A DNA stretch of 38,651 nt from Saprospiraceae bacterium (GTDB taxonomy: Bacteria; Bacteroidota; Bacteroidia; Chitinophagales; Saprospiraceae): NCBI GenBank assembly GCA_020630525.1, contig JAHDBF010000002.1, positions 23,757-62,407 of the forward strand, given 5' to 3'. Shown here in pieces: positions 9,538-28,668 of this stretch (position 1 is its first letter; every line of letters starts with the position of its first letter). Both the position numbers and the translations under genes were made by a program. The notes beneath the pieces were generated by a model. The model was not told the origin of the DNA, searched no databases, and saw only the letters and a list, made by a program, of their open reading frames with translations.

Positions 9538-10536
9538 ATGGGAAATAAAAAACTCTTGATTACTGGAGCCAACGGTTTCGTGGGAAGTTTCCTAGTAGAG
9601 CATGCCATTAATGAAGGCTATGACACTTATATTGGTATCAGAAAATCTTCTGACCTTACTTTTCTAGATGGTTTATCATTTGGTAAAATCTTTATTGATT
9701 TTGAAAACGAAGAACTTCTAAGAGCACAATTGGTCGAAAATAAATTTGACTACATCATTCACAATGCTGGAATTACACGTGCCAAATCTGAGGCAGAATT
9801 TCATAAGGTAAATGCCAGTTATGTGTACAAAATGGGAAAGCTACTTATAGAAGAAAATATCATTCCTAAAAAGTTTGTTTTCACCAGTAGCTTGGCCTCT
9901 TATGGACCCGCAGATAACACTCCAGATAACATTGTAAATTATAAAGTTTTCCCAAAACCTATCACACAATATGGTCGATCAAAACTCCAAGCAGAGGAAT
10001 TTTTATATGGTCTTAAAAAACTACCCGTTTTAATATTTAGACCCACAGCAGTTTATGGACCGAGAGAAAAGGATATTTTCATTGCCATAGACTCTATCAA
10101 TAAAGGCATCTGTTTAAAAATCGGAAAAGAGACTCAATTGGGTTCTTTTATCTACGTCAAAGATTTGGCAAGTCTAATGGTGAAAAGTTTATCTTCTGAC
10201 GTTTCTCAAAAAGGTTATTTTGTAAGTGACGGTAACACGTATCCGATCAAAAATTTTAACGCCTTAATTTCCAATATCTTAAATAAAAAACCACTAAAAT
10301 TAACAGTCCCTATTTCCTTTCTAAAACCCATAGCGTACATTTCCGAAACGTTAGGTAGAATCACAGGAAAATCAACAATTATAAATCGTGATAAAGTAGC
10401 AGAGTTAAGTGCGAGAAACTGGAATTGCGACATCAAAGATTTAAAAGAAGATTTTGATTGGGAACCTAAGTACAGCTTAGAACAAGGGATGAAGGAGACC
10501 ATTGAATGGTATAAGCGTGAAGGATGGATTAAGTGA
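9538..10536 (+). CDS. NAD-dependent epimerase/dehydratase, candidate ceramide reductase CerR
   Basis: Extended short-chain dehydrogenase of 332 aa. The nucleotide-binding motif G-A-N-G-F-V-G is at residues 10-16, the catalytic Tyr145-x3-Lys149 pair is in Q-Y-G-R-S-K, and the active-site Ser lies in the T-S-S-L-A-S-Y-G stretch near 116-123. R-P-T-A-V-Y-G-P-R-E at about 168-177 is typical of the epimerase family. Third gene of the spt cluster, 7 bases after the acyltransferase. By analogy with Caulobacter CerR it would reduce the 3-keto group of the (oxidised) ceramide or of 3-ketosphinganine. A sugar epimerase role is the main alternative but no glycan genes adjoin it. Confidence 0.75.
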   Translation: MGNKKLLITGANGFVGSFLVEHAINEGYDTYIGIRKSSDLTFLDGLSFGKIFIDFENEELLRAQLVENKFDYIIHNAGITRAKSEAEFHKVNASYVYKMGKLLIEENIIPKKFVFTSSLASYGPADNTPDNIVNYKVFPKPITQYGRSKLQAEEFLYGLKKLPVLIFRPTAVYGPREKDIFIAIDSINKGICLKIGKETQLGSFIYVKDLASLMVKSLSSDVSQKGYFVSDGNTYPIKNFNALISNILNKKPLKLTVPISFLKPIAYISETLGRITGKSTIINRDKVAELSARNWNCDIKDLKEDFDWEPKYSLEQGMKETIEWYKREGWIK

Positions 10537-10606
10537 TTAGATTTTCAACCATATGTCAACACAATACGTTATATACTACCAATAGGTTATAAATTTTTCT
10601 TAAGCG

Positions 10607-11968
10607 TCAATAATTAAAATATGGATCAATAACAATGTCTTCTTCAAAGGACAATATTTGCTTTCTTACCAATTTCCTATACTCAACAGAACCATTCCCT
10701 CTAGTTCTATAAATTTGATTTAGGTTGTAGGAATAGGCAGATACTAGATTTACTTTCCATCGCTCCTCTGCTTTACTCATATTTATGTCAAAAGCAATTT
10801 GTTCTCTTTTATCTAAAAGGTCTGAAACTTTTATAAGTTTTACTGTAGCAACAGAATCTGAATCTAACGTAACTCCATTTATTTTTACGCTAGCATGTAA
10901 ATCTTCGATCGACAGAAAACCTCGATTAAATAATTTTAAAAAGAATATATAATCAGACAATTTTTTCTTTGCTTGCGATAATCTCTTTTGAGATTTTGCT
11001 TTATCATTTTCATCTAAATAAACATATTTCGTCATCAATGCCAATTCATAAATTAAAGGGTTATTCTTATAATCCTTGGTTAAAATAGTCCTTAACTCAT
11101 CTTCGGGCTTAGTAGATTGTAACAATATGTTCTTATAAAATTCTATACTTTCTGCATCTATCATTGACATCAAACTATCTATCTTGTTGTGATTTAACAA
11201 AAAATGATTTAGGTCACTTACAACTCGAGCTTCGATATTCTTGTCTAAAAAAGGAACAGGTTTAGATTCATCAACCAATATAATATCACGAATTGTAAAG
11301 CTTTTACCATCTGTTGGTAGAAGTCTTGGATTGACCTTTATTGGTTTTTGAACTTTATTATTAAATCTAGGGAAGGCACCCAATAAATCAGTTTTTGCAA
11401 AAGCAATATTTTGCATTGGATTATTGCCTTTATAATAGCCAAAAGCCCAATTTTCATCACCCCATTTTTTCTTATTATTATCTACAGGAGCATAAAAATA
11501 AATACTATCAGCATCATGTCGATTTACATTGATTGCAATTTTTTTGTAGTCATAATTCAATATATAGATATGGCTTGTATCTGGATTATTAATATGATCA
11601 GTAAATCGTTCTGCCCTATCAATTATATTAGATTGTAATTCATTTTTCTTGGTGTTGTCTTTTATAATACTTCCTAAGAAAATAAAAATAAAAATCGCAC
11701 CAAATAAAATTAAACCAAAAAAAGAATACCAAGGATCATTAGATTGTCCAAATTTCCTTTCAACAATCCTATAGACGCTATGTGGTGCCATGTAACTATT
11801 TCCCCCTTTTTCATAAACCCAAAGTCTTTTAATCGGAAAAATAGGCAAAAACATTAAATGTCCAACTCTTACTTTTTCAGCAATTTCAGTATTAGGTGGT
11901 AATTCTATTTCTGGTAATTCTTTTTGCGAGAAAGAACGCATTGTTATGTGATAGTATCCGAATATCAT
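10607..11968 (-). CDS. Unknown protein with one membrane segment
   Basis: A 453-residue protein I do not recognise. Residues 1-75 form a soluble N-terminal piece with a hydrophobic-aromatic pattern (LMFLPIFPIKRLWVYEKGG), vaguely like the N-terminus of small zinc-ribbon membrane proteins but without any cysteines. One strong transmembrane helix follows at about residues 81-103 (GLILFGAIFIFIFLG). The large C-terminal region of about 350 residues is soluble, mixed alpha/beta, and contains a Lys-rich helical stretch near 325-350 that could be tetratricopeptide-like. It converges with the ceramide operon (70-base gap) and diverges from the MFS gene. No function is proposed. Confidence 0.6.
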   Translation of the reverse strand: MIFGYYHITMRSFSQKELPEIELPPNTEIAEKVRVGHLMFLPIFPIKRLWVYEKGGNSYMAPHSVYRIVERKFGQSNDPWYSFFGLILFGAIFIFIFLGSIIKDNTKKNELQSNIIDRAERFTDHINNPDTSHIYILNYDYKKIAINVNRHDADSIYFYAPVDNNKKKWGDENWAFGYYKGNNPMQNIAFAKTDLLGAFPRFNNKVQKPIKVNPRLLPTDGKSFTIRDIILVDESKPVPFLDKNIEARVVSDLNHFLLNHNKIDSLMSMIDAESIEFYKNILLQSTKPEDELRTILTKDYKNNPLIYELALMTKYVYLDENDKAKSQKRLSQAKKKLSDYIFFLKLFNRGFLSIEDLHASVKINGVTLDSDSVATVKLIKVSDLLDKREQIAFDINMSKAEERWKVNLVSAYSYNLNQIYRTRGNGSVEYRKLVRKQILSFEEDIVIDPYFNY

Positions 11969-19310: not shown

Positions 19311-19616
19311 ATGAATTTCTTTTCAAAATTATTTAAGCAAAAAAACAGCACCCCAAAACTGGATGAAGCTCAACTTGTAGATGCTGCTGTATGCCCCAAC
19401 TGTTGGGGAAAAATGGAATATGACAATCAATATATAGATTATGTAAAAGATCAAACAAAATCTAACATTAATCATGACAATACAGGGAAGAAAGCTTTTG
19501 TACAGCAATTTGTAGAAACACATGTTACAGGAATTCATCTCAAAAAAGATGGAGATCATCTATCTTGTCCAATGTGCAAAGGCAAATATAAAAAGGTAAG
19601 CAACAAAGCAAATTAA
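19311..19616 (+). CDS. Small zinc-ribbon protein
   Basis: A 101-residue cytosolic protein with two C-x2-C knuckles, Cys28/Cys31 (V-C-P-N-C-W-G-K) and Cys86/Cys89 (L-S-C-P-M-C-K-G-K), about 55 residues apart, which together would bind one zinc. Between them lies a mostly helical segment with several His residues. The N-terminus M-N-F-F-S-K-L-F-K could be an amphipathic helix. The partner or substrate is unknown. The stop codon is one base from the ATG of the MerA-like gene, so translation is probably coupled and a role with that flavoprotein is likely. Confidence 0.75.
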   Translation: MNFFSKLFKQKNSTPKLDEAQLVDAAVCPNCWGKMEYDNQYIDYVKDQTKSNINHDNTGKKAFVQQFVETHVTGIHLKKDGDHLSCPMCKGKYKKVSNKAN

Positions 19617-19617
19617 A

Positions 19618-20988
19618 ATGACAAAAGAATATGACTTAATAGTTATTGGCGCAGGATCTGGTGGATTAGTCGCTGCAACAACAGCACATAGAAAAGGACT
19701 TAAGACAGCGCTTATTGAAAAACATAAAATTGGTGGAGAATGTACGCATTTTGGTTGTGTTCCCAGTAAAGCATTAATAAATGCTGCTAAAGCATATCAT
19801 AGTATTTCTAAAATGGGTAAGCTAGGAATACAAGTTGAAAAACCAAAAGTAGATTTTAAATCTATAATGGAACAAGTCGACGATATTGTACAAGGTATTT
19901 ACAAACATGAAACTCCAGACATTTTTATAAACATGGGAATAGATGTTTTTGTGGATAACAATGGTGCTCAATTTTTAGACAATAATATGATATCCATTGG
20001 CAAAGATACTTTGTCTGCAAAAAACTATATCATATGTACTGGATCATCTCCAAGGCTCCCTAACATTAAAGGCATAGAAAAAGCATCAATATTACACAAT
20101 GAAAACTTTTGGGAATTAAGAAGTTTTCCAAAGAAAATTGTATTCATAGGTGGTGGTGTAATTTCTGTAGAGTTGGGACAAGCTCTTGCAAGGTTAGGAA
20201 CTGAAGTTATAATAATTGAACGTAATACTAGAATCTTAAAAGTGACTGATCCTGAGATTGGAGAATATCTAACTAATCAAATTATAGAAGAAGGCGTACA
20301 AATCATTTTTAATGCAACAATAAAAGAATTCGAAAGTGAAAATAATTTAGCTTATGAAATAGATGGGATCAAGCACAATATTTCTGCAGATCACTTCTTC
20401 TTTGCAACTGGAAGATCAGCAAATACAAATGGTATAAACTTAGAAAATGCAAATATTGAATTTGATCAAAGAGGGATAAAAACTAATGAATTCCTCCAAA
20501 CTACAAACCCCCATATTTATGCGTGTGGAGATGTAACTACACCATATAAGTTCACACATACTGCATCTCATCAAGCCAATATTTGTATTGACAATATAAT
20601 AAACGGAAATACAAAATCTAATGATCTCAGCATTTTACCTTGGGCGATATTTACAGAACCAGAAATTGGTCATGTCGGATTAACAGAATTAGAAGCAGAA
20701 GAAAAGTTTGGAAAAGAAAATTTAAAAATTTTCAAAGTAGAAGCAGCAATCGATCGATTTATTACCGATAGAAAAACAGGAGGATTATTAAAAGTAATAT
20801 TTGACAACAACGACTTAGTAGTAGGCGCAGAAGGAGTTGGCACACATGCTGGCGAGTGGATCCAATTTTTTACATTGGTAATTAAGAACAAAATCCCAGC
20901 ATCAAAAATGGCAGATACAATTTTTGCTTATCCAAGTTATTCGGAAATAGTAAAAAAAGTTTTTAGCAGATATTTAAGAAGTAAATAA
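19618..20988 (+). CDS. MerA-like FAD-dependent disulfide oxidoreductase
   Basis: A 456-residue class I pyridine nucleotide-disulfide oxidoreductase. An FAD motif G-A-G-S-G-G lies at 11-16, the redox disulfide is Cys42/Cys47 in G-G-E-C-T-H-F-G-C-V-P-S-K, the NAD(P)H motif G-G-G-V-I-S is near 178, and the dimerisation domain begins near 340. The C-terminal A-H-P motif that supplies the catalytic His of dihydrolipoamide dehydrogenase reads A-Y-P here, so it is not a normal Lpd. It also lacks the N-terminal heavy-metal domain and the C-terminal cysteine pair of true mercuric reductases. An uncharacterised small-disulfide or metal reductase is likely. It overlaps the next ATG by one base (TAATG). 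Confidence 0.82.
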   Translation: MTKEYDLIVIGAGSGGLVAATTAHRKGLKTALIEKHKIGGECTHFGCVPSKALINAAKAYHSISKMGKLGIQVEKPKVDFKSIMEQVDDIVQGIYKHETPDIFINMGIDVFVDNNGAQFLDNNMISIGKDTLSAKNYIICTGSSPRLPNIKGIEKASILHNENFWELRSFPKKIVFIGGGVISVELGQALARLGTEVIIIERNTRILKVTDPEIGEYLTNQIIEEGVQIIFNATIKEFESENNLAYEIDGIKHNISADHFFFATGRSANTNGINLENANIEFDQRGIKTNEFLQTTNPHIYACGDVTTPYKFTHTASHQANICIDNIINGNTKSNDLSILPWAIFTEPEIGHVGLTELEAEEKFGKENLKIFKVEAAIDRFITDRKTGGLLKVIFDNNDLVVGAEGVGTHAGEWIQFFTLVIKNKIPASKMADTIFAYPSYSEIVKKVFSRYLRSK

Positions 20989-21704
20989 TGGAAACCAACT
21001 ATAGTATCTCTGCAATCATAGTTGCGTATAACGAAGAGCTATTAATAGAAAACATCATTTTACAATTGAGAAATCAAGAATACGATGGAGATCTAGAAAT
21101 CATATTAGCAGATGGCGGCAGTAATGACAATACAGTTGAATTAGCCAAAAAAGAAAACATTTTAATTTCTACTTCGGCCAAAGGGAAAGCAAATCAAATG
21201 AATGCTGCGGTAAAGATTGCTTCTGGTGATATTATATTTTTTGTTCATGCAGATATGACTTTGGACAAAAACACAATATCAACCATTAATAAGCACATAA
21301 AAGATGGATATAATGGCGGCGGATTTGCAAATGAATTTGATGAAAATAATGAAAAAATCAAACGATTAGGAAATTGGTTTAATTTTAGAATTTTAGATAA
21401 AAGAGAACAATCAGACAAAGGCATATTTTATGGAGACAATGGCATTTTTGTAGAGAAATCTGTTTTCCAAAAATTAAATGGATTTAAAGAAATTCCAATA
21501 ATGGAAGACTACGATTTTTCACTAAGATTGAATCAAGACCATAGTACTATAAAAATCAGAAATCCGATAATCTTGGTATCTTCTCGTAGGCATATAAAAG
21601 CTGGGTTTTTAAAAACCAGATTACAATGGGTAATCATCAGGAAGTTATACAAATTAGGAATTTCACCCTTTACATTAGTAAAATGGTATAAAGACGTAAG
21701 ATGA
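20988..21704 (+). CDS. Family 2 glycosyltransferase, TIGR04283-like
   Basis: A 238-residue GT-A glycosyltransferase. It has I-V-A-Y-N-E-E (11-17), the L-A-D-G-G-S-N-D-N-T nucleotide-sugar loop (40-49), K-G-K-A-N-Q-M-N-A-A (65-74), the metal-binding H-A-D at 87-89 and the acceptor motif M-E-D-Y-D-F near 175. K-G-K-A-N-Q-M-N and H-A-D are the marks of TIGR04283, a family named for arsenosugar clusters. No arsenite methyltransferase (ArsM) or radical SAM ArsS is in this window, so an arsenosugar role is unsupported and another small-molecule glycoside is equally likely. Coupled to the MerA-like gene by a one-base overlap. Confidence 0.8.
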   Translation: METNYSISAIIVAYNEELLIENIILQLRNQEYDGDLEIILADGGSNDNTVELAKKENILISTSAKGKANQMNAAVKIASGDIIFFVHADMTLDKNTISTINKHIKDGYNGGGFANEFDENNEKIKRLGNWFNFRILDKREQSDKGIFYGDNGIFVEKSVFQKLNGFKEIPIMEDYDFSLRLNQDHSTIKIRNPIILVSSRRHIKAGFLKTRLQWVIIRKLYKLGISPFTLVKWYKDVR

Positions 21705-21759: not shown

Positions 21760-22263
21760 ATGAACGAGCAAAATATAAAATACGGAATAGAAGGTCATCA
21801 AGCACCAGAATTGGCGACAGATATTCATTGGATAAATGGAGCCGGTCAAGAAATAGATCCTATCCAATTAAAAGATTACGAAAATAAATTTAAAGTAATA
21901 TATGCATTCCAATCATGGTGTCCAGGATGTCATAGCAGAGGCTTACCTTCTTTACAGAAAATGGTAAATGCATTAAATGGAAACGACAATGTTGTATTCT
22001 TTGCAATGCAAACTGTTTTCGAAGGTTTTAATGCGAACACAAAAGATAAGTTATTAGAAACACAAAATAAATACAATTTACAAATACCGTTTGGACACGA
22101 TATTGGCAACGACAAAACCAATAATAGGTCTAGCACAATGTATCACTATAGAACTGGTGGAACACCTTGGTTTATTTTGATTGATAAAAGCAATAGAGTT
22201 GTTTTTAATGATTTTCAATTGAATACCGAAAAAGCAATTGATTATTTAAAATCGGTAAAATAA
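21760..22263 (+). CDS. Thioredoxin-fold (TlpA/AhpC-TSA-like) protein
   Basis: A 167-residue thioredoxin-fold protein with the active site W-C-P-G-C (Cys54 and Cys57) after the strand K-V-I-Y-A-F. The cis-proline segment is G-T-P-W-F-I-L-I-D near 137-145. There is no signal peptide or lipobox, so it should act in the cytosol, unlike typical TlpA and ResA. The CPGC dithiol suggests disulfide exchange. The stop abuts the start of the glutaredoxin-like gene with no gap, so the two are likely made together. Confidence 0.78.
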   Translation: MNEQNIKYGIEGHQAPELATDIHWINGAGQEIDPIQLKDYENKFKVIYAFQSWCPGCHSRGLPSLQKMVNALNGNDNVVFFAMQTVFEGFNANTKDKLLETQNKYNLQIPFGHDIGNDKTNNRSSTMYHYRTGGTPWFILIDKSNRVVFNDFQLNTEKAIDYLKSVK

Positions 22264-22533
22264 ATGAAGGATAGAAAAAATGACATTTTACTCTACGGAG
22301 CAGACCGTTGCCACAAAACGGTATTTTATTTAGAACTTCTTGAAAGCAAAAATTTAGAATATACTTTTCTAGATGTAGAAAAAAATCTGAATGCAGCACA
22401 AGAGTTAAGAGCGATGTATTCAAGTGGGAAATTAAATTTTCCAACTTTAGTTATTCATGGAAAAAAATTAAGAAATCCATCAGTCAAAGACATAAATAAA
22501 TGGCTAGATAAAAAAGAAATTAAATCATGTTAG
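22264..22533 (+). CDS. Glutaredoxin-like protein, monothiol active site
   Basis: An 89-residue glutaredoxin-fold protein: beta strand D-I-L-L-Y-G, active-site segment R-C-H-K-T with a single cysteine at Cys16 (C-x-x-T instead of C-x-x-C), and the cis-Pro60 in N-F-P-T-L-V-I. The last residue is Cys89, which could serve as a resolving thiol. Monothiol glutaredoxins handle glutathione disulfides or iron-sulfur clusters; with no C-G-F-S motif, the cluster role is less likely. It lies two genes before selO, and glutaredoxin is a reported SelO AMPylation target in E. coli. Its 3' end overlaps the small GNAT gene by seven bases. Confidence 0.72.
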   Translation: MKDRKNDILLYGADRCHKTVFYLELLESKNLEYTFLDVEKNLNAAQELRAMYSSGKLNFPTLVIHGKKLRNPSVKDINKWLDKKEIKSC

Positions 22534-22814
22534 CATCCGATTATATATTTTCTCACAACAAGGAATCACAACAATTCATTCTTCAAATTGATAAAGAAAA
22601 CAGCGCAGTTATTGAATATACTTTAAGAGATAATATATTCTATTTAACACATTCTGAAGTACCATCCAACATGCGTGGAAAAGGGATTGGTAAGATATTG
22701 GTAGAAAAAACATTTGACTATATTGAACAACAAAATTCAAAAGCAAAAGCCATTTGTAGCTATATTAAAATGGTAGCAATGCGAAGCCAGAAATGGTCTA
22801 TAATAATTATATAA
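22527..22814 (+). CDS. Small GNAT protein (Acetyltransf_CG/YjdJ type), probable 3' frameshift
   Basis: A 95-residue short GNAT-fold protein with the acetyl-CoA loop M-R-G-K-G-I-G-K at residues 49-56 following V-P-S-N, typical of the small single-domain YjdJ/human GTLF3B group. The family normally ends with a C-x-F/Y segment and then a (K/R)-(H/x)-P-E-x motif. Here the frame instead runs into R-S-Q-K-W-S-I-I-I-I. Adding a single A near 22784 gives R-K-P-E-M-V-Y-N-N-Y-I-N-E-L and a stop about 20 bases into selO. That would restore the family end, so a one-base deletion or sequencing error close to the 3' end is likely. Confidence 0.75.
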   Translation: MLASDYIFSHNKESQQFILQIDKENSAVIEYTLRDNIFYLTHSEVPSNMRGKGIGKILVEKTFDYIEQQNSKAKAICSYIKMVAMRSQKWSIIII

Positions 22815-24392
22815 ATGAACTTAAATATAAAAGATAAATTCAATAAAGAATTGCCTGCAGATCCAGACAATTCTAATACTAGGAGACAAGTACATAACGC
22901 ATGTTTTTCATACGTTACACCTAGAAAACCATCTATGCCAAAACTCCTACACTACTCAGAAGAAATGGCAGCAAATATTGGCTTAGATTCTCAAGATGTT
23001 AAATCGTCAGATTTTTTAAAAGTATTTTCTGGCAATGAAGTAATGGAAAACACAAAGCCATACGCTATGTGTTATGGTGGTCATCAATTTGGACAATGGG
23101 CTGGGCAACTTGGAGATGGCCGAGCTATCAACCTTGCAGAAGTCGAACACAATGACAAGTCGTGGTCATTGCAACTCAAAGGTGCAGGAGCAACACCCTA
23201 CTCCAGAACGGCAGATGGATTCGCAGTACTGCGGTCTTCTATCAGAGAGCATCTATGTAGTGAAGCCATGTACCATCTTGGTGTACCGACAACGCGATCC
23301 TTATCATTAATGCTATCAGGAGATCAAGTGATGCGTGATATGATGTATGATGGAAATGCAGACTATGAAAAAGGAGCTATCGTTTGCAGAGCTGCAGAAT
23401 CGTTTATCAGATTCGGGAATTTTGAAATCCTTGCTAGTAGAGGCGAACTAGAAACACTAAAAAAATTGGCAGACTATACAATCAAAAATCACTTCTCAGA
23501 TATTCAACAAGAAGACAAATCTAAGTATTTAGATTTCTTTAGAGAAGTTACCAATAGAACACAAGAGATGATTGTACATTGGCAAAGAGTCGGATTTGTG
23601 CATGGAGTAATGAATACAGATAATATGTCAATCTTAGGATTAACCATCGATTTTGGACCATATGGTTGGCTGGAAGGCTATGAAGAAAATTGGACACCTA
23701 ATACAACGGATAGACAGATGCGTCGGTATCGTTTTGGCCATCAACCAAGCGTTGCCTTATGGAATTTAGTTAGATTGGCAAATGCAATATACCCTCTTGT
23801 AGAAGAGAGTAAAGGTTTTGAGGAAATCTTAAATCAATACCAAGTAAATTATCAACAAGCATACGCAGATATGATGATGTCAAAACTTGGATTAGAAAAT
23901 AAAGAAAATCTTAAAAAAGACTTGATTCCAAACCTTATCGAAGTATTGCAATTGAGTGAAACTGACATGACGATATTTTTTAGAAAATTGGCAGCATTCA
24001 CAAAAGAAGGAAATTCAAAAAATGAAGAGATAGATTTCTTAGCACTAATAAAAGATGCCTTTTACAATCCAGAAGAAATAAAAGATGAAGTATATCTTAA
24101 ATGGCAAAATTGGTTCGAATCATATAGACAACATTTGCAATTAGAATCACTGACTGATAATCAGCGTAAAACAAAAATGAATGCAGTCAATCCCAAATAT
24201 GTGCTTAGAAACTACATGGCACAATTGGCAATCGACGCAGCAGACAATGGCGATTATTCTGTGATTAATGAATTGCATACTTTATTAAAGAAACCATATC
24301 AAGAACAATTAGAAAATGAAAAATGGTTTGTTAAACGACCAGAATGGGCAAGACATAAAGTTGGTTGCTCGATGCTTTCATGTAGCTCATAG
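22815..24392 (+). CDS. selO: Protein adenylyltransferase SelO (UPF0061/YdiU)
   Basis: A 525-residue pseudokinase-fold enzyme that transfers AMP from ATP to Ser, Thr or Tyr of target proteins and is linked to redox control. Family features: G-G-H-Q-F-G-Q-W-A-G-Q-L-G-D-G-R-A at 88-104, L-K-G-A-G-x-T-P-Y-S-R at 121-131, T-D-N at 268-270 and the D-F-G-x-Y-G motif at 279-284 carrying the metal-binding Asp residues. The C-terminus ends G-C-S-M-L-S-C-S-S; eukaryotic SelO has selenocysteine near this end, replaced by cysteine here, as in other bacteria. The length suits a bacterial SelO. It is immediately adjacent to, and coupled with, the upstream GNAT and glutaredoxin-like genes. Confidence 0.93.
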   Translation: MNLNIKDKFNKELPADPDNSNTRRQVHNACFSYVTPRKPSMPKLLHYSEEMAANIGLDSQDVKSSDFLKVFSGNEVMENTKPYAMCYGGHQFGQWAGQLGDGRAINLAEVEHNDKSWSLQLKGAGATPYSRTADGFAVLRSSIREHLCSEAMYHLGVPTTRSLSLMLSGDQVMRDMMYDGNADYEKGAIVCRAAESFIRFGNFEILASRGELETLKKLADYTIKNHFSDIQQEDKSKYLDFFREVTNRTQEMIVHWQRVGFVHGVMNTDNMSILGLTIDFGPYGWLEGYEENWTPNTTDRQMRRYRFGHQPSVALWNLVRLANAIYPLVEESKGFEEILNQYQVNYQQAYADMMMSKLGLENKENLKKDLIPNLIEVLQLSETDMTIFFRKLAAFTKEGNSKNEEIDFLALIKDAFYNPEEIKDEVYLKWQNWFESYRQHLQLESLTDNQRKTKMNAVNPKYVLRNYMAQLAIDAADNGDYSVINELHTLLKKPYQEQLENEKWFVKRPEWARHKVGCSMLSCSS

Positions 24393-25861: not shown

Positions 25862-27472
25862 ATGAAAAAAATTAAACTGTGTTCTTATTCAGAATTGGAA
25901 GAAAAGAAACCACTTGGCAAACAAGTAAATGGTTTAGATTTAGTAATAATTAAATACGGCAGTGAGGTATCAGTACTCTACGGTAGGTGTCTACATAGAG
26001 GAGCACTTATGGCAGATGGTCATGTAGATGGTGACAATATAATCTGCGGTGTCCATAATTGGGATTACAGAATCGATACTGGAGTGAGTGAATATAATAA
26101 TAAAGAAGCGTTGCATAAATTTCATGCAGAAGTTTCTGACGACACAGTTTATGTTGATGAGAATGAGATTAACGAATATCTGGTCAAGCACCCACAACCA
26201 TTTAACAGAGATGTTTACTTAGGTCAATATGCAGATACCCACCCAGAACCTACAGAACCATACACAAGCTACATAAAGGAACTTGCACAAAATGGACTAA
26301 AGAACTGGGGACATCATGGTCCTTCTGAATCAATGGGCGTAGACAGAAACACATTACCAAAATGGGAAAACATACAATTCTTACCAGCACAATTGGCATC
26401 ACGTCCACTACTAGATGAAGAGTCTGTAAGCACGAAAGTGACTATCGGTAAAAATGCAAAAAAACCATTATCCTTAGACATTCCACTTTTTGTTTCTGAT
26501 ATGAGTTTTGGTTCACTTTCTAGAGAGGCAAAAATTGCATTATCAATGGGCGCAGAATTATCAGGAACAGGAATTTGCAGTGGAGAAGGTGGTATGTTAC
26601 CAGAAGAACAGGCCAATAATTCAAGATACTTTTATGAGTTGGCATCTGGGAAATTTGGCTTCTCTTGGGACAAAGTAAAGAAAGCACAGGCGTTTCATTT
26701 CAAAGGCGGGCAAGGTGCTAAAACTGGAACTGGAGGACACCTTCCAGGGAATAAAGTCACCGAAGAAATCGCTGAAGTAAGAGGTTTAAAAGTAGGAGAA
26801 ACTGCAATATCTCCAGCCGCTTTTCCAGATCTATTTACAGCAGAAGATTTTAAGAAATTTGCAAATGAAGTAAGAGAGAAAACTGGTGGAATTCCAATCG
26901 GATTTAAAATTGCGGCGAGTCATATCGAAGCTGATATAGACTTTGCAATTAATGTAGGTGTTGACTATATTATCCTTGATGGTAGAGGCGGTGGAACTGG
27001 TTCTGCACCGACAATCTTAAGGAACAATATAAATGTACCTACGATTCCTGCATTGGCGAGAGCAAGAAAACATTTGGATAAAATCGGAGCTTCAGATGTT
27101 ACTTTGATTATTACAGGAGGATTGCGTGTAGCAGAAGATTTTGCTAAAGCAATGATGCTAGGAGCAGATGCCATTGCAGTTTCTAACTCAGCACTCCAAG
27201 CGATCGGGTGCTTAGGAATGAGGGCTTGTAATTCTAACAACTGTCCAGTAGGAATAGCTACTCAAAAAGACAACCTAAGGCAGCGATTAATAATAGAAGC
27301 ATCAGCCAAACAATTGCATAATTTTTTCGATGCAACGAATGAATTAATAAAAGTGGTGGCAAGGTCTTGTGGACATGATGACATTGCTAAATTTAATCAC
27401 AACGATCTTTCTACTTTTGATTATGACCTACATAGACTTTCTGGAATTAACTATGCTGGAATAACGCACTAA
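25862..27472 (+). CDS. Rieske [2Fe-2S] domain fused to FMN glutamate synthase-like domain
   Basis: A 536-residue protein. Residues 1-110 are a Rieske ferredoxin domain with C43-x-H45-x16-C62-x2-H65 ligands (G-R-C-L-H-R-G and I-I-C-G-V-H-N-W). Residues about 140-530 form the GltS/GltB2-type FMN barrel, with G-G-R-G-G-G-T-G-S-A-P near 370 and the cysteine motif G-C-L-G-M-R-A-C-N-S-N-N-C-P-V-G-I-A-T-Q near 450-468 for the 3Fe-4S cluster. There is no glutaminase domain, so it is not a full glutamate synthase; the Rieske domain presumably feeds or receives electrons. The substrate is unknown. It follows the Crp/Fnr regulator directly, suggesting redox- or ligand-controlled expression. Confidence 0.82.
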   Translation: MKKIKLCSYSELEEKKPLGKQVNGLDLVIIKYGSEVSVLYGRCLHRGALMADGHVDGDNIICGVHNWDYRIDTGVSEYNNKEALHKFHAEVSDDTVYVDENEINEYLVKHPQPFNRDVYLGQYADTHPEPTEPYTSYIKELAQNGLKNWGHHGPSESMGVDRNTLPKWENIQFLPAQLASRPLLDEESVSTKVTIGKNAKKPLSLDIPLFVSDMSFGSLSREAKIALSMGAELSGTGICSGEGGMLPEEQANNSRYFYELASGKFGFSWDKVKKAQAFHFKGGQGAKTGTGGHLPGNKVTEEIAEVRGLKVGETAISPAAFPDLFTAEDFKKFANEVREKTGGIPIGFKIAASHIEADIDFAINVGVDYIILDGRGGGTGSAPTILRNNINVPTIPALARARKHLDKIGASDVTLIITGGLRVAEDFAKAMMLGADAIAVSNSALQAIGCLGMRACNSNNCPVGIATQKDNLRQRLIIEASAKQLHNFFDATNELIKVVARSCGHDDIAKFNHNDLSTFDYDLHRLSGINYAGITH

Positions 27473-27482
27473 ACTTGAAATT

Positions 27483-27836
27483 ATGGAAACCATATTTCAC
27501 ATTTTTAAAATAATAGCTCAAATAATTAATGTCATTGGGATATCTATTTTAATATTTGGATTCAGTAAAGAATTGATTAAATACATTATTACAGAATTCA
27601 AAACTGGAATAGGAAAAACTCCGACAAAAGGAATACAAACCATCAGATGCCAATTAGGACTTTACATCCTATTGGCATTAGATTTCCTTATCGCTTCAGA
27701 CATCATACTAAGTGTTGCAGAACTATCTATGGAAGAACTTATTCAACTTTCAGTCACGATTACACTACGAATTGCAATGGGATATTTCCTAGGAAAAGAG
27801 ATTGATGAGCTAAATAGTGAATTAAAAAATGACTAA
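27483..27836 (+). CDS. DUF1622 membrane protein
   Basis: A 117-residue membrane protein with three hydrophobic segments (about 10-32, 58-75 and 90-108) and the DUF1622 family features E-T-I-F-H-I-F near the start, R-C-Q-L-G-L-Y-I-L-L-A-L-D-F-L-I-A-S-D-I in the middle and T-L-R-I-A-M-G-Y-F-L near 95. Such proteins are widespread in bacteria; their function is not known. It starts 10 bases after the Rieske-glutamate synthase gene and overlaps the DUF547 gene by eight bases, so it is part of that operon. Confidence 0.82.
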   Translation: METIFHIFKIIAQIINVIGISILIFGFSKELIKYIITEFKTGIGKTPTKGIQTIRCQLGLYILLALDFLIASDIILSVAELSMEELIQLSVTITLRIAMGYFLGKEIDELNSELKND

Positions 27837-28668
27837 ACTCAAAATTGTATTACTTGGAATTCTATTTATTTCAATCATTGCCTTTGGCTATTTAAAGTAT
27901 AATCATATGAACATTAATGACATAGCTTTAAAAGTGTTAAGTTGGGTAAAAAAAATCAAAGGCGATGCTGTAGATCTGAAAACTATAAACAGTCAACAAA
28001 CAAATTCTATGAATCACGATCAATGGACTACCCTACTAAAAAAACATGTAACGGATACTGGTAAGGTTAACTATCAAGGATTTATGCAAGATAGCGAATC
28101 ATTCAAAGCGTATTTATCTGCGCTATCGAGTCATGTTCCAGGAAATAACTGGTCTCAAGATGAAAAATTGGTCTACTGGATTAATGCATACAATGCTTTT
28201 ACCATTAAACTTATTATTGATAACTATCCACTAAAAAGCATTAAAAATATTGGAGATGGATTACCAATGATTGATTCGCCTTGGGACATTAAATTCTTTA
28301 AAATTGGAGATCAAGATTTTGATCTAAATACAATAGAACATGAGATTCTAAGAAAACAGTTTAATGAACCGAGAATTCATTTTGCAATTAACTGTGCGTC
28401 GTTCTCTTGTCCGATCATTAGGAATGAAGCTTTCGAAGTCACCAGAATAGATCAACAACTAAATGAGCAAGCATCAAACTTTATTAACAATATACACAAA
28501 AACAAAATCGACGCGAGGAATACTAAGTTGTCTAAAATCTTTGATTGGTTTCAAAGTGATTTTGGAGGAGAAGCATCATTATTGAAGTTTATAAAACAAT
28601 ATGCACCATCTCTTAATGAAGCAAATAAAATTGAGTATATTGATTATGATTGGACACTAAATGAGTAA
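27829..28668 (+). CDS. DUF547 domain protein, membrane anchored or secreted
   Basis: A 279-residue protein with an N-terminal hydrophobic helix (residues about 4-22), read as a signal anchor. The DUF547 region follows, with D-E-K-L-V-Y-W-I-N-A-Y-N-A-F-T-I-K-L near 115-132 and the central I-N-C-A-S-F-S-C-P near 186-194, the cysteine-containing signature. DUF547 members resemble transglutaminase-like or papain-like folds and occur in bacteria and plants; a catalytic role is unproven. It sits between DUF1622 and the MscS channel and is probably located at the outer face of the inner membrane. Confidence 0.82.
   Translation: MTKLKIVLLGILFISIIAFGYLKYNHMNINDIALKVLSWVKKIKGDAVDLKTINSQQTNSMNHDQWTTLLKKHVTDTGKVNYQGFMQDSESFKAYLSALSSHVPGNNWSQDEKLVYWINAYNAFTIKLIIDNYPLKSIKNIGDGLPMIDSPWDIKFFKIGDQDFDLNTIEHEILRKQFNEPRIHFAINCASFSCPIIRNEAFEVTRIDQQLNEQASNFINNIHKNKIDARNTKLSKIFDWFQSDFGGEASLLKFIKQYAPSLNEANKIEYIDYDWTLNE

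Follow-up and report, generated by a model that had tools for sequence, protein, structure and literature searches.

The passages on SelO in an earlier neighbourhood analysis place its gene significantly close to msrB and, as a trend, close to msrA, genes of methionine sulfoxide reductases (Msr), and read this as a link to oxidative stress (Dudkiewicz et al. 2012, PMC3281104). SelO has been described to AMPylate E. coli glutaredoxin at the active-site residue Tyr13, in work that sought the targets by applying human SelO to an extract of E. coli (PMC8097203), and this modification is said to inhibit deglutathionylation (PMC8097203, PMC12663964). Recycling of MsrA by the mycoredoxin/mycothiol system has been published as well (PMC10950700). 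Here we analyse a stretch of 38,651 nucleotides from the genome of a Saprospiraceae bacterium (hereafter, the window), in which selO is the last of four tightly packed genes, preceded by those for a redoxin, a monothiol glutaredoxin-like protein (Grx) and a small GNAT acetyltransferase. In marine Bacteroidota, selO often stands beside genes for the repair of oxidised methionine and sometimes beside grx, so that the window carries one form of a redox-repair cluster that is conserved, not a private pair of Grx and SelO. We favour, with moderate confidence, the reading that the four genes form the core of a cytoplasmic operon for the repair of oxidative damage, in which Grx would serve Msr or thiol repair and SelO would be co-expressed. 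SelO itself is best read as a frequent, non-obligatory companion of this redox-repair operon.

The redoxin, grx, gnat and selO genes are four consecutive open reading frames on the plus strand at 21760-24392 (Table 1). The first base of grx directly follows the redoxin stop codon, the start of gnat overlaps the end of grx by 7 bases, and selO begins with the base after the gnat stop codon. The frames, their order and their zero-gap or overlapping spacing, as given by the sequence-only reading, were thus confirmed, with Pfam support for each gene; the same-strand run proved longer than that reading had it. It extends 5' of the redoxin gene through genes for a zinc-ribbon-like protein (zr), a flavin adenine dinucleotide (FAD)-dependent reductase and a glycosyltransferase, and 3' of selO it is followed on the same strand by genes for a YjeF_N protein, a Crp-type regulator and a protein with Rieske and glutamate synthase domains. 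A frameshift in gnat, considered on account of an odd-looking C-terminus, was dropped because relatives share the same ending (for example, CSFIKILALRSPKWKEIIK).

Within the Saprospiraceae, selO was found in 65 of 150 genomes. The 65 loci that we mapped comprise those of five genus relatives, that of G113, 58 further loci and the window, with the selO fragments at contig ends of G049, G079 and G125 left aside. On the same strand within 5 kb of selO, these loci contain msrA (12), zr (6), GNAT (4), msrB (3) and a redoxin of the window type (4), and a true grx is found in 2, the window and G113. The latter genome, which belongs to another genus, carries grx-GNAT-selO-zr (locus L204), so that the window order recurs; with its conservation in G113 and in Flavobacteriaceae, the order is not peculiar to this genome; had it been so, the sequence-only reading would have counted as refuted. 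Apart from the window, G113 and G009 are the only family members with strong relatives of grx; all further matches are weak, and several of them lie in long frames. Two sites in G009 share out the cluster, one with zr-redoxin-[grx fused to GNAT] and the other with msrB-msrA-redoxin-selO, and G095 and G098 both have msrA-redoxin-GNAT-selO; in these three genomes, a redoxin orthologue lies just 5' of selO or gnat. None of the five same-genus relatives has a redoxin, grx or GNAT gene beside selO, the contig of one of them (G005) ending 671 bases upstream of selO.

A broader view came from a species-genome collection (84,980 species), scanned with a three-row Grx alignment and two short peptide patterns, a search that distant relatives may escape. 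It yielded 43 grx loci, or 42 after removal of L208, where a weak Grx match lies beside a reductase-like frame; 40 are flavobacterial and 2 are from Saprospiraceae. Some of the loci are truncated by contig ends, and the neighbour counts are therefore lower bounds. By profile searches, the genes on the same strand no more than 5 kb away from grx in the 42 loci include msrA in 38, msrB in 38, either of the two in 39 and selO in 24, followed by redoxin (18), zr (12) and GNAT (5). Msr is thus a tighter partner of grx than SelO is (39 versus 24 of the 42 loci). Seen from selO, the 64 flavobacterial loci contain msrA in 45, msrB in 38, true grx in 10, a window-type redoxin in 7 and GNAT in 2. Looser redoxin counts near selO (10 flavobacterial and 6 Saprospiraceae loci) pool other redoxins; at least 46% identity to the window protein reduces them to the 7 and 4 given here.

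The order met frequently in marine Flavobacteriaceae is msrB-msrA-(redoxin)-grx-(GNAT)-selO-second msrA. In Lacinutrix (L191), msrB, msrA, redoxin, grx-GNAT, selO, a second msrA and zr follow each other on one strand, each gene beginning at or near the end of the preceding one. There, grx and GNAT share a single reading frame, which exceeds the Pfam cut-offs for both domains, and the same fusion is seen in L192, L198 and L206; an ATG precedes the Grx part in L191 and L192, whereas only a TTG does so in L198 and L206. In L139, L140, L251 and L259, all of which lack grx, the place directly before selO is taken by GNAT.

Several further genes recur around these clusters. A divergent second MsrA with a GCHWC motif is often encoded 3' of selO (L166 11129-11590; L168 9846-10355, 75.8 bits to PF01625; L191 10067-10585, where its frame as listed overlaps the 3' end of selO), and in L168 it is followed by an alpha/beta-hydrolase-OsmC fusion (10352-11572), likely an extra peroxide-defence gene of the flavobacterial operon. 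The zr family, which is uncharacterised, recurs in two bacterial families close to selO, grx and the second copy of msrA (the window, L036, L125, L140, L145, L161 and L191); the predicted model of the window protein is poor (pLDDT 65). Frames of about 470-490 amino acids (L148, L179, L193 and L237) carry Grx domains and were left out of the grx counts. Such frames have two glutaredoxin domains ahead of an apparent thioredoxin-reductase domain (for example, L025 301-1719) and lie near selO in L148 and L237 and near grx in L179 and L193. Apparently decayed copies were seen as well: grx with internal stops (G175:C12:179718-179964 and G356:C18:57822-57992), an interrupted zr (L199 6556-6855) and a selO split over two frames (G047:C7:36846-38227).

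The association of grx with selO was quantified in 199 sampled Flavobacteriaceae genomes, in which matches above 80 bits in frames shorter than 250 amino acids were taken as strong grx. The sample is centred on G168, itself a member, which was picked via grx locus L207; it also overlaps with the set of 42 grx loci. Strong grx is present in 16 genomes (one of them, G275, with a stop within the matched stretch), selO in 64 and both in 11. The two genes are associated, selO being present in 11 of the 16 grx genomes versus 53 of the 183 others (Fisher p = 0.0035; p = 0.0067 without G168). In 10 of the 11 genomes with both, grx lies directly 5' of selO on the same strand; random placement would give a spacing of at most 500 bp in 10 of 11 with a probability of about 2e-38, a figure that ignores shared ancestry. 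On the SelO tree (148 rows, enriched by 21 grx-seeded loci), the adjacency needs 16 changes, at least 6 of which are forced by well-supported branches. Eighteen grx loci have no selO nearby; among the 16 corresponding genomes that were searched (all but those of L179 and L205), 9 have selO elsewhere, and no selO was found in the remaining 7, for which completeness is not stated and at least two of which are metagenome-assembled genomes. The grx-selO pair is thus linked far beyond chance, yet each is often present without the other.

Classical glutaredoxin active sites read CPYC or CGFS. The window Grx has neither motif; it carries one active-site cysteine in CHKT and ends in KSC. Across an alignment of 35 orthologues, the active site reads CHK[TS], with C16, H17, K18 and Tyr22 invariant and Thr19 nearly so. 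The terminal cysteine pointed out by the sequence-only reading is confined to the window protein among 49 domain rows. AlphaFold predicts a glutaredoxin fold (pLDDT 87; order beta-alpha-beta-alpha-beta-beta-alpha), with 3zij as the closest PDB match (TM 0.70) and thioredoxin-like BC3987 and archaeal glutaredoxins, among others, as the best fold matches. Sequence profiles give weak matches to BC3987, arsenate reductase 2kok (E 0.002) and a putative mycobacterial glutaredoxin, and the top NCBIfam match, mycoredoxin TIGR02200, scores 28.5 bits, far under its cut-off of 89.5. With its non-classical active-site motif, the protein is best called glutaredoxin-like. It is 59-62% identical to its four best flavobacterial relatives and 48-51% identical to the two other Saprospiraceae Grx, and the redoxin and zr of the window are closest to Saprospiraceae homologues; the Grx tree, with 76 columns, is too short to settle a horizontal gain from Flavobacteriaceae.

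The close pairing of grx with selO invites the idea that Grx is an operon-encoded substrate of SelO, in which AMPylation at Thr19 or Tyr22 near the active cysteine would switch off dethiolation under oxidation, as has been suggested for GrxA of E. coli. Besides the co-presence and adjacency in the sampled genomes, it draws on the AMPylation of E. coli glutaredoxin at Tyr13, which reportedly inhibits deglutathionylation (PMC8097203, PMC12663964), and on the conservation of Tyr22 and Thr19. By motif alignment, however, the position of Tyr13 of GrxA, two residues past the first active-site cysteine, is occupied in the 35 orthologues by the invariant Lys18, and all seven grx genomes without a selO match retain Thr19 and Tyr22, which were probably kept for another reason. 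For both reasons, a GrxA-like AMPylation of the window Grx is not supported by the sequences. In addition, grx is absent from 54 of the 64 flavobacterial and 63 of the 65 Saprospiraceae selO loci (the window counted among the 65). The suggestion of the sequence-only reading that Grx may be the dedicated partner or substrate of SelO has lost ground accordingly: Grx keeps closer company with msr than with selO, selO was not found in 7 of 16 searched grx genomes, grx accompanies selO at only 10 of the 64 flavobacterial loci, and none of the five genus relatives has it beside selO. A private substrate of this kind now appears unlikely, with another acceptor, Thr19 or Tyr22, being possible.

SelO of the window is a predicted AMPylase with an intact catalytic aspartate. 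Its match to PF02696 covers positions 15-464 of 466; it exceeds the cut-off of NF000658 (575.4 versus 431) and stays under those of the equivalog models NF040880 (410.6 versus 900) and NF045949 (439.1 versus 850). Aligned to SelO proteins of known structure (four different sequences, residues 26/29-519 of 525), it retains the catalytic residue, with Asp279 (HGVMNTDN...TIDFGPYG) matching Asp256 of chain 6k20, which we take to be E. coli SelO. The inactive form of SelO is described as D256A (PMC12663964). The C-terminus, CSMLSCSS, is intact. In the SelO tree, the window protein groups with one same-genus SelO (G001; SH-aLRT 92, unstarred), which only weakly favours vertical descent over a move of selO with the cluster; a row from another genus is nearer by path, and the remaining same-genus rows are placed elsewhere.

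Under the favoured reading of a repair operon, the flavobacterial form would be the full one, and the Saprospiraceae form, that of the window included, would have fewer genes in a changed arrangement, its msrA and msrB lying at other sites of the genome. Grx would act as a monothiol thiol-transferase, the single cysteine of C-H-K-T accepting a mixed disulfide with a small thiol, most likely bacillithiol, and would thereby contribute to restoring Msr enzymes or protein thiols that have been oxidised, in much the way that mycoredoxin, with mycothiol, serves MsrA. Electrons could come from the redoxin and the FAD reductase, and SelO, presumably transcribed together with the other genes, would have metabolic or redox enzymes as its AMPylation targets under oxidation. 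We infer a bacillithiol-linked role for Grx because BshC exceeds its cut-off in all 19 genomes that were searched, including the genome of the window, because GSH-S_ATP matches exceed 180 bits (GshB-like) in only 10 of the 19, and because a Polaribacter has been shown by measurement to contain N-methyl-bacillithiol (PMC6282198). The best GSH-S_ATP score in the genome of the window is 98 bits, and G113 likewise does not exceed 180 bits.

A number of observations weigh against this reading. GSH-S_ATP matches as such are present in 19 of 19 genomes, and with the GshB-like matches in 10 of them glutathione remains a candidate thiol. Profile searches found neither msrA nor msrB in the window; in its genome, msrA and msrB form a pair on contig C79, C64 carries an extra msrA, and no msr stands beside Grx-GNAT-selO in G113. 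As counted above, most selO loci have no grx, and scans for promoters and terminators gave no more than shuffled sequence. Finally, the mycoredoxin model predicts that MsrA encoded beside grx should have no resolving cysteine, and this was not borne out: the cysteine content is similar whether grx is nearby or not. With first and second msrA pooled (141 canonical rows), the 77 rows near grx and the 62 near selO without grx have the four cysteine columns filled in 76/77 versus 62/62, 68/77 versus 56/62, 39/77 versus 34/62 and 77/77 versus 59/62, respectively.

The fluid membership of the cluster could also mean that Grx, GNAT and SelO only share a regulon that responds to oxidative stress and have no direct biochemical link to one another. 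The repeated gains or losses of adjacency on the SelO tree speak for such an account, as do the predominance of selO loci with msr alone and the variable presence of the second msrA, zr, the OsmC-domain protein, an aldo/keto reductase and the Rieske protein. A mere regulon is harder to reconcile with the place of grx directly 5' of selO in 10 sampled genomes, a slot filled by GNAT in the four loci named above, and the one-frame Grx-GNAT fusion suggests a physical tie for at least that pair. We regard this account as possible but rather unlikely. A more far-reaching proposal, that the CHK[TS] protein represents a new bacillithiol-linked reductase class devoted to the repair of methionine and thiols, switched by SelO through AMPylation of Thr19 or Tyr22 and by the adjacent or fused GNAT through acetylation of the invariant active-site Lys18, seems very improbable.

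Of the genes that surround the four (Table 1), zr has no Pfam or NCBIfam match above cut-off, and the FAD reductase, which is under the cut-off of all 25 NCBIfam models shown, is assigned at the level of its superfamily. The glycosyltransferase bears on an arsenic-related account, by which Grx, as a thioltransferase of the ArsC kind, would take part in arsenic chemistry jointly with this upstream TIGR04283-like enzyme. The C-x-K-[TS] motif of Grx resembles that of ArsC, arsenate reductase 2kok is among its weak profile matches, and the glycosyltransferase falls just under the cut-off of the arsenosugar model. A single-sequence profile of the glycosyltransferase, however, found no relative in any other selO or grx locus, and the Msr link dominates; we consider an arsenic role extremely unlikely, and the glycosyltransferase is perhaps a mere neighbour of the cluster, which it flanks on one side as a DUF547 protein does on the other. 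Homologues of the Rieske/glutamate-synthase-domain protein, 77% identical to it, lie between msrA and grx in 2 of the 42 grx loci. They were seen inside the msrB-msrA-grx run of two flavobacteria (L167 6388-7992 and L190 5854-7458). An Rfam scan gave no match.

Table 1. Features of the window in and around the redoxin-grx-gnat-selO genes.
Feature	Coordinates	Strand	Best support and remarks
zr, small zinc-ribbon-like protein (CPNCWG...CxxC)	19311..19616	+	No curated family; recurrent cluster member
FAD pyridine-nucleotide disulfide oxidoreductase (mercuric/lipoamide/glutathione-reductase superfamily)	19618..20988	+	PF07992, 227.3 bits
Family 2 glycosyltransferase, TIGR04283-like	20988..21704	+	180.1 bits versus cut-off 182; 55 bp 5' of redoxin
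rdx, redoxin/TlpA-like protein, CPGC (...WCPGCH...)	21760..22263	+	PF08534, 37.3 bits
grx, monothiol glutaredoxin-like protein, CHKT	22264..22533	+	PF00462, 29.0 bits (cut-off 22.9)
gnat, small Acetyltransf_CG-family GNAT	22527..22814	+	PF14542, 66.3 bits (cut-off 30)
selO, protein adenylyltransferase	22815..24392	+	PF02696, 436.3 bits (cut-off 22.8)
Rieske and glutamate-synthase-domain protein	25862..27472	+	PF01645, 292.5 bits; possible accessory member
DUF547 protein	27829..28668		

Which proteins bacterial SelO modifies in nature is poorly established, and an operon that repeatedly places a single-cysteine Grx, a redoxin, a small GNAT and Msr enzymes beside SelO offers a short list of natural candidates. 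Its occurrence in bacteria with a bacillithiol gene suggests that SelO acts alongside the repair of methionine and thiols in systems not based on glutathione, and the natural Grx-GNAT fusions are a hint at the function of the small Acetyltransf_CG acetyltransferase family. We found no published report of the grx-GNAT-selO arrangement among candidate papers, most of which were judged by title or listing. Across 45,479 SelO neighbourhoods, the ProFaNA survey found 4,848 domains to be over-represented, and its SelO section names neither glutaredoxin nor the Acetyltransf_CG GNAT, which the supplementary tables may list (PMC10364804).

In clostridia, a selenoprotein glutaredoxin reportedly reduces MsrA, to go by the title of a 2011 report by Kim et al.; the pairing of a glutaredoxin with MsrA is alike, but the window Grx has cysteine in CHK[TS] and no selenocysteine, and the clostridial case is not known to involve SelO. 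Mycoredoxin has a dithiol motif, as does E. coli GrxA (CPYC), and the window Grx stays well below the mycoredoxin model (28.5 versus 89.5 bits). What it would have in common with the mycoredoxin-1/mycothiol system is the combination of a small glutaredoxin-fold protein and Msr with a non-glutathione thiol (PMC10950700). With the SelO-GrxA case of E. coli, the locus shares an AMPylase and a glutaredoxin that would belong to one redox circuit, the difference being that GrxA is modified on active-site Tyr13, whereas the CHK[TS] protein has lysine there (PMC8097203, PMC12663964). In the published neighbourhoods, SelO is likewise found near methionine sulfoxide reductase genes, but Grx-like, GNAT and redoxin neighbours are not among the passages on SelO in that paper, the text of which has "glutaredoxin" once, in a reference title, and "acetyltransferase" never (PMC3281104). 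The view of the sequence-only reading that the linkage lies outside the usual selO context consequently stands for grx and GNAT, as far as the published context seen goes, and falls short for the cluster as a whole: the linkage of selO to msrB was already known, and what appears to be new is the extension of the Msr-SelO neighbourhood by a CHK[TS] Grx-like protein, a redoxin, a GNAT and zr.

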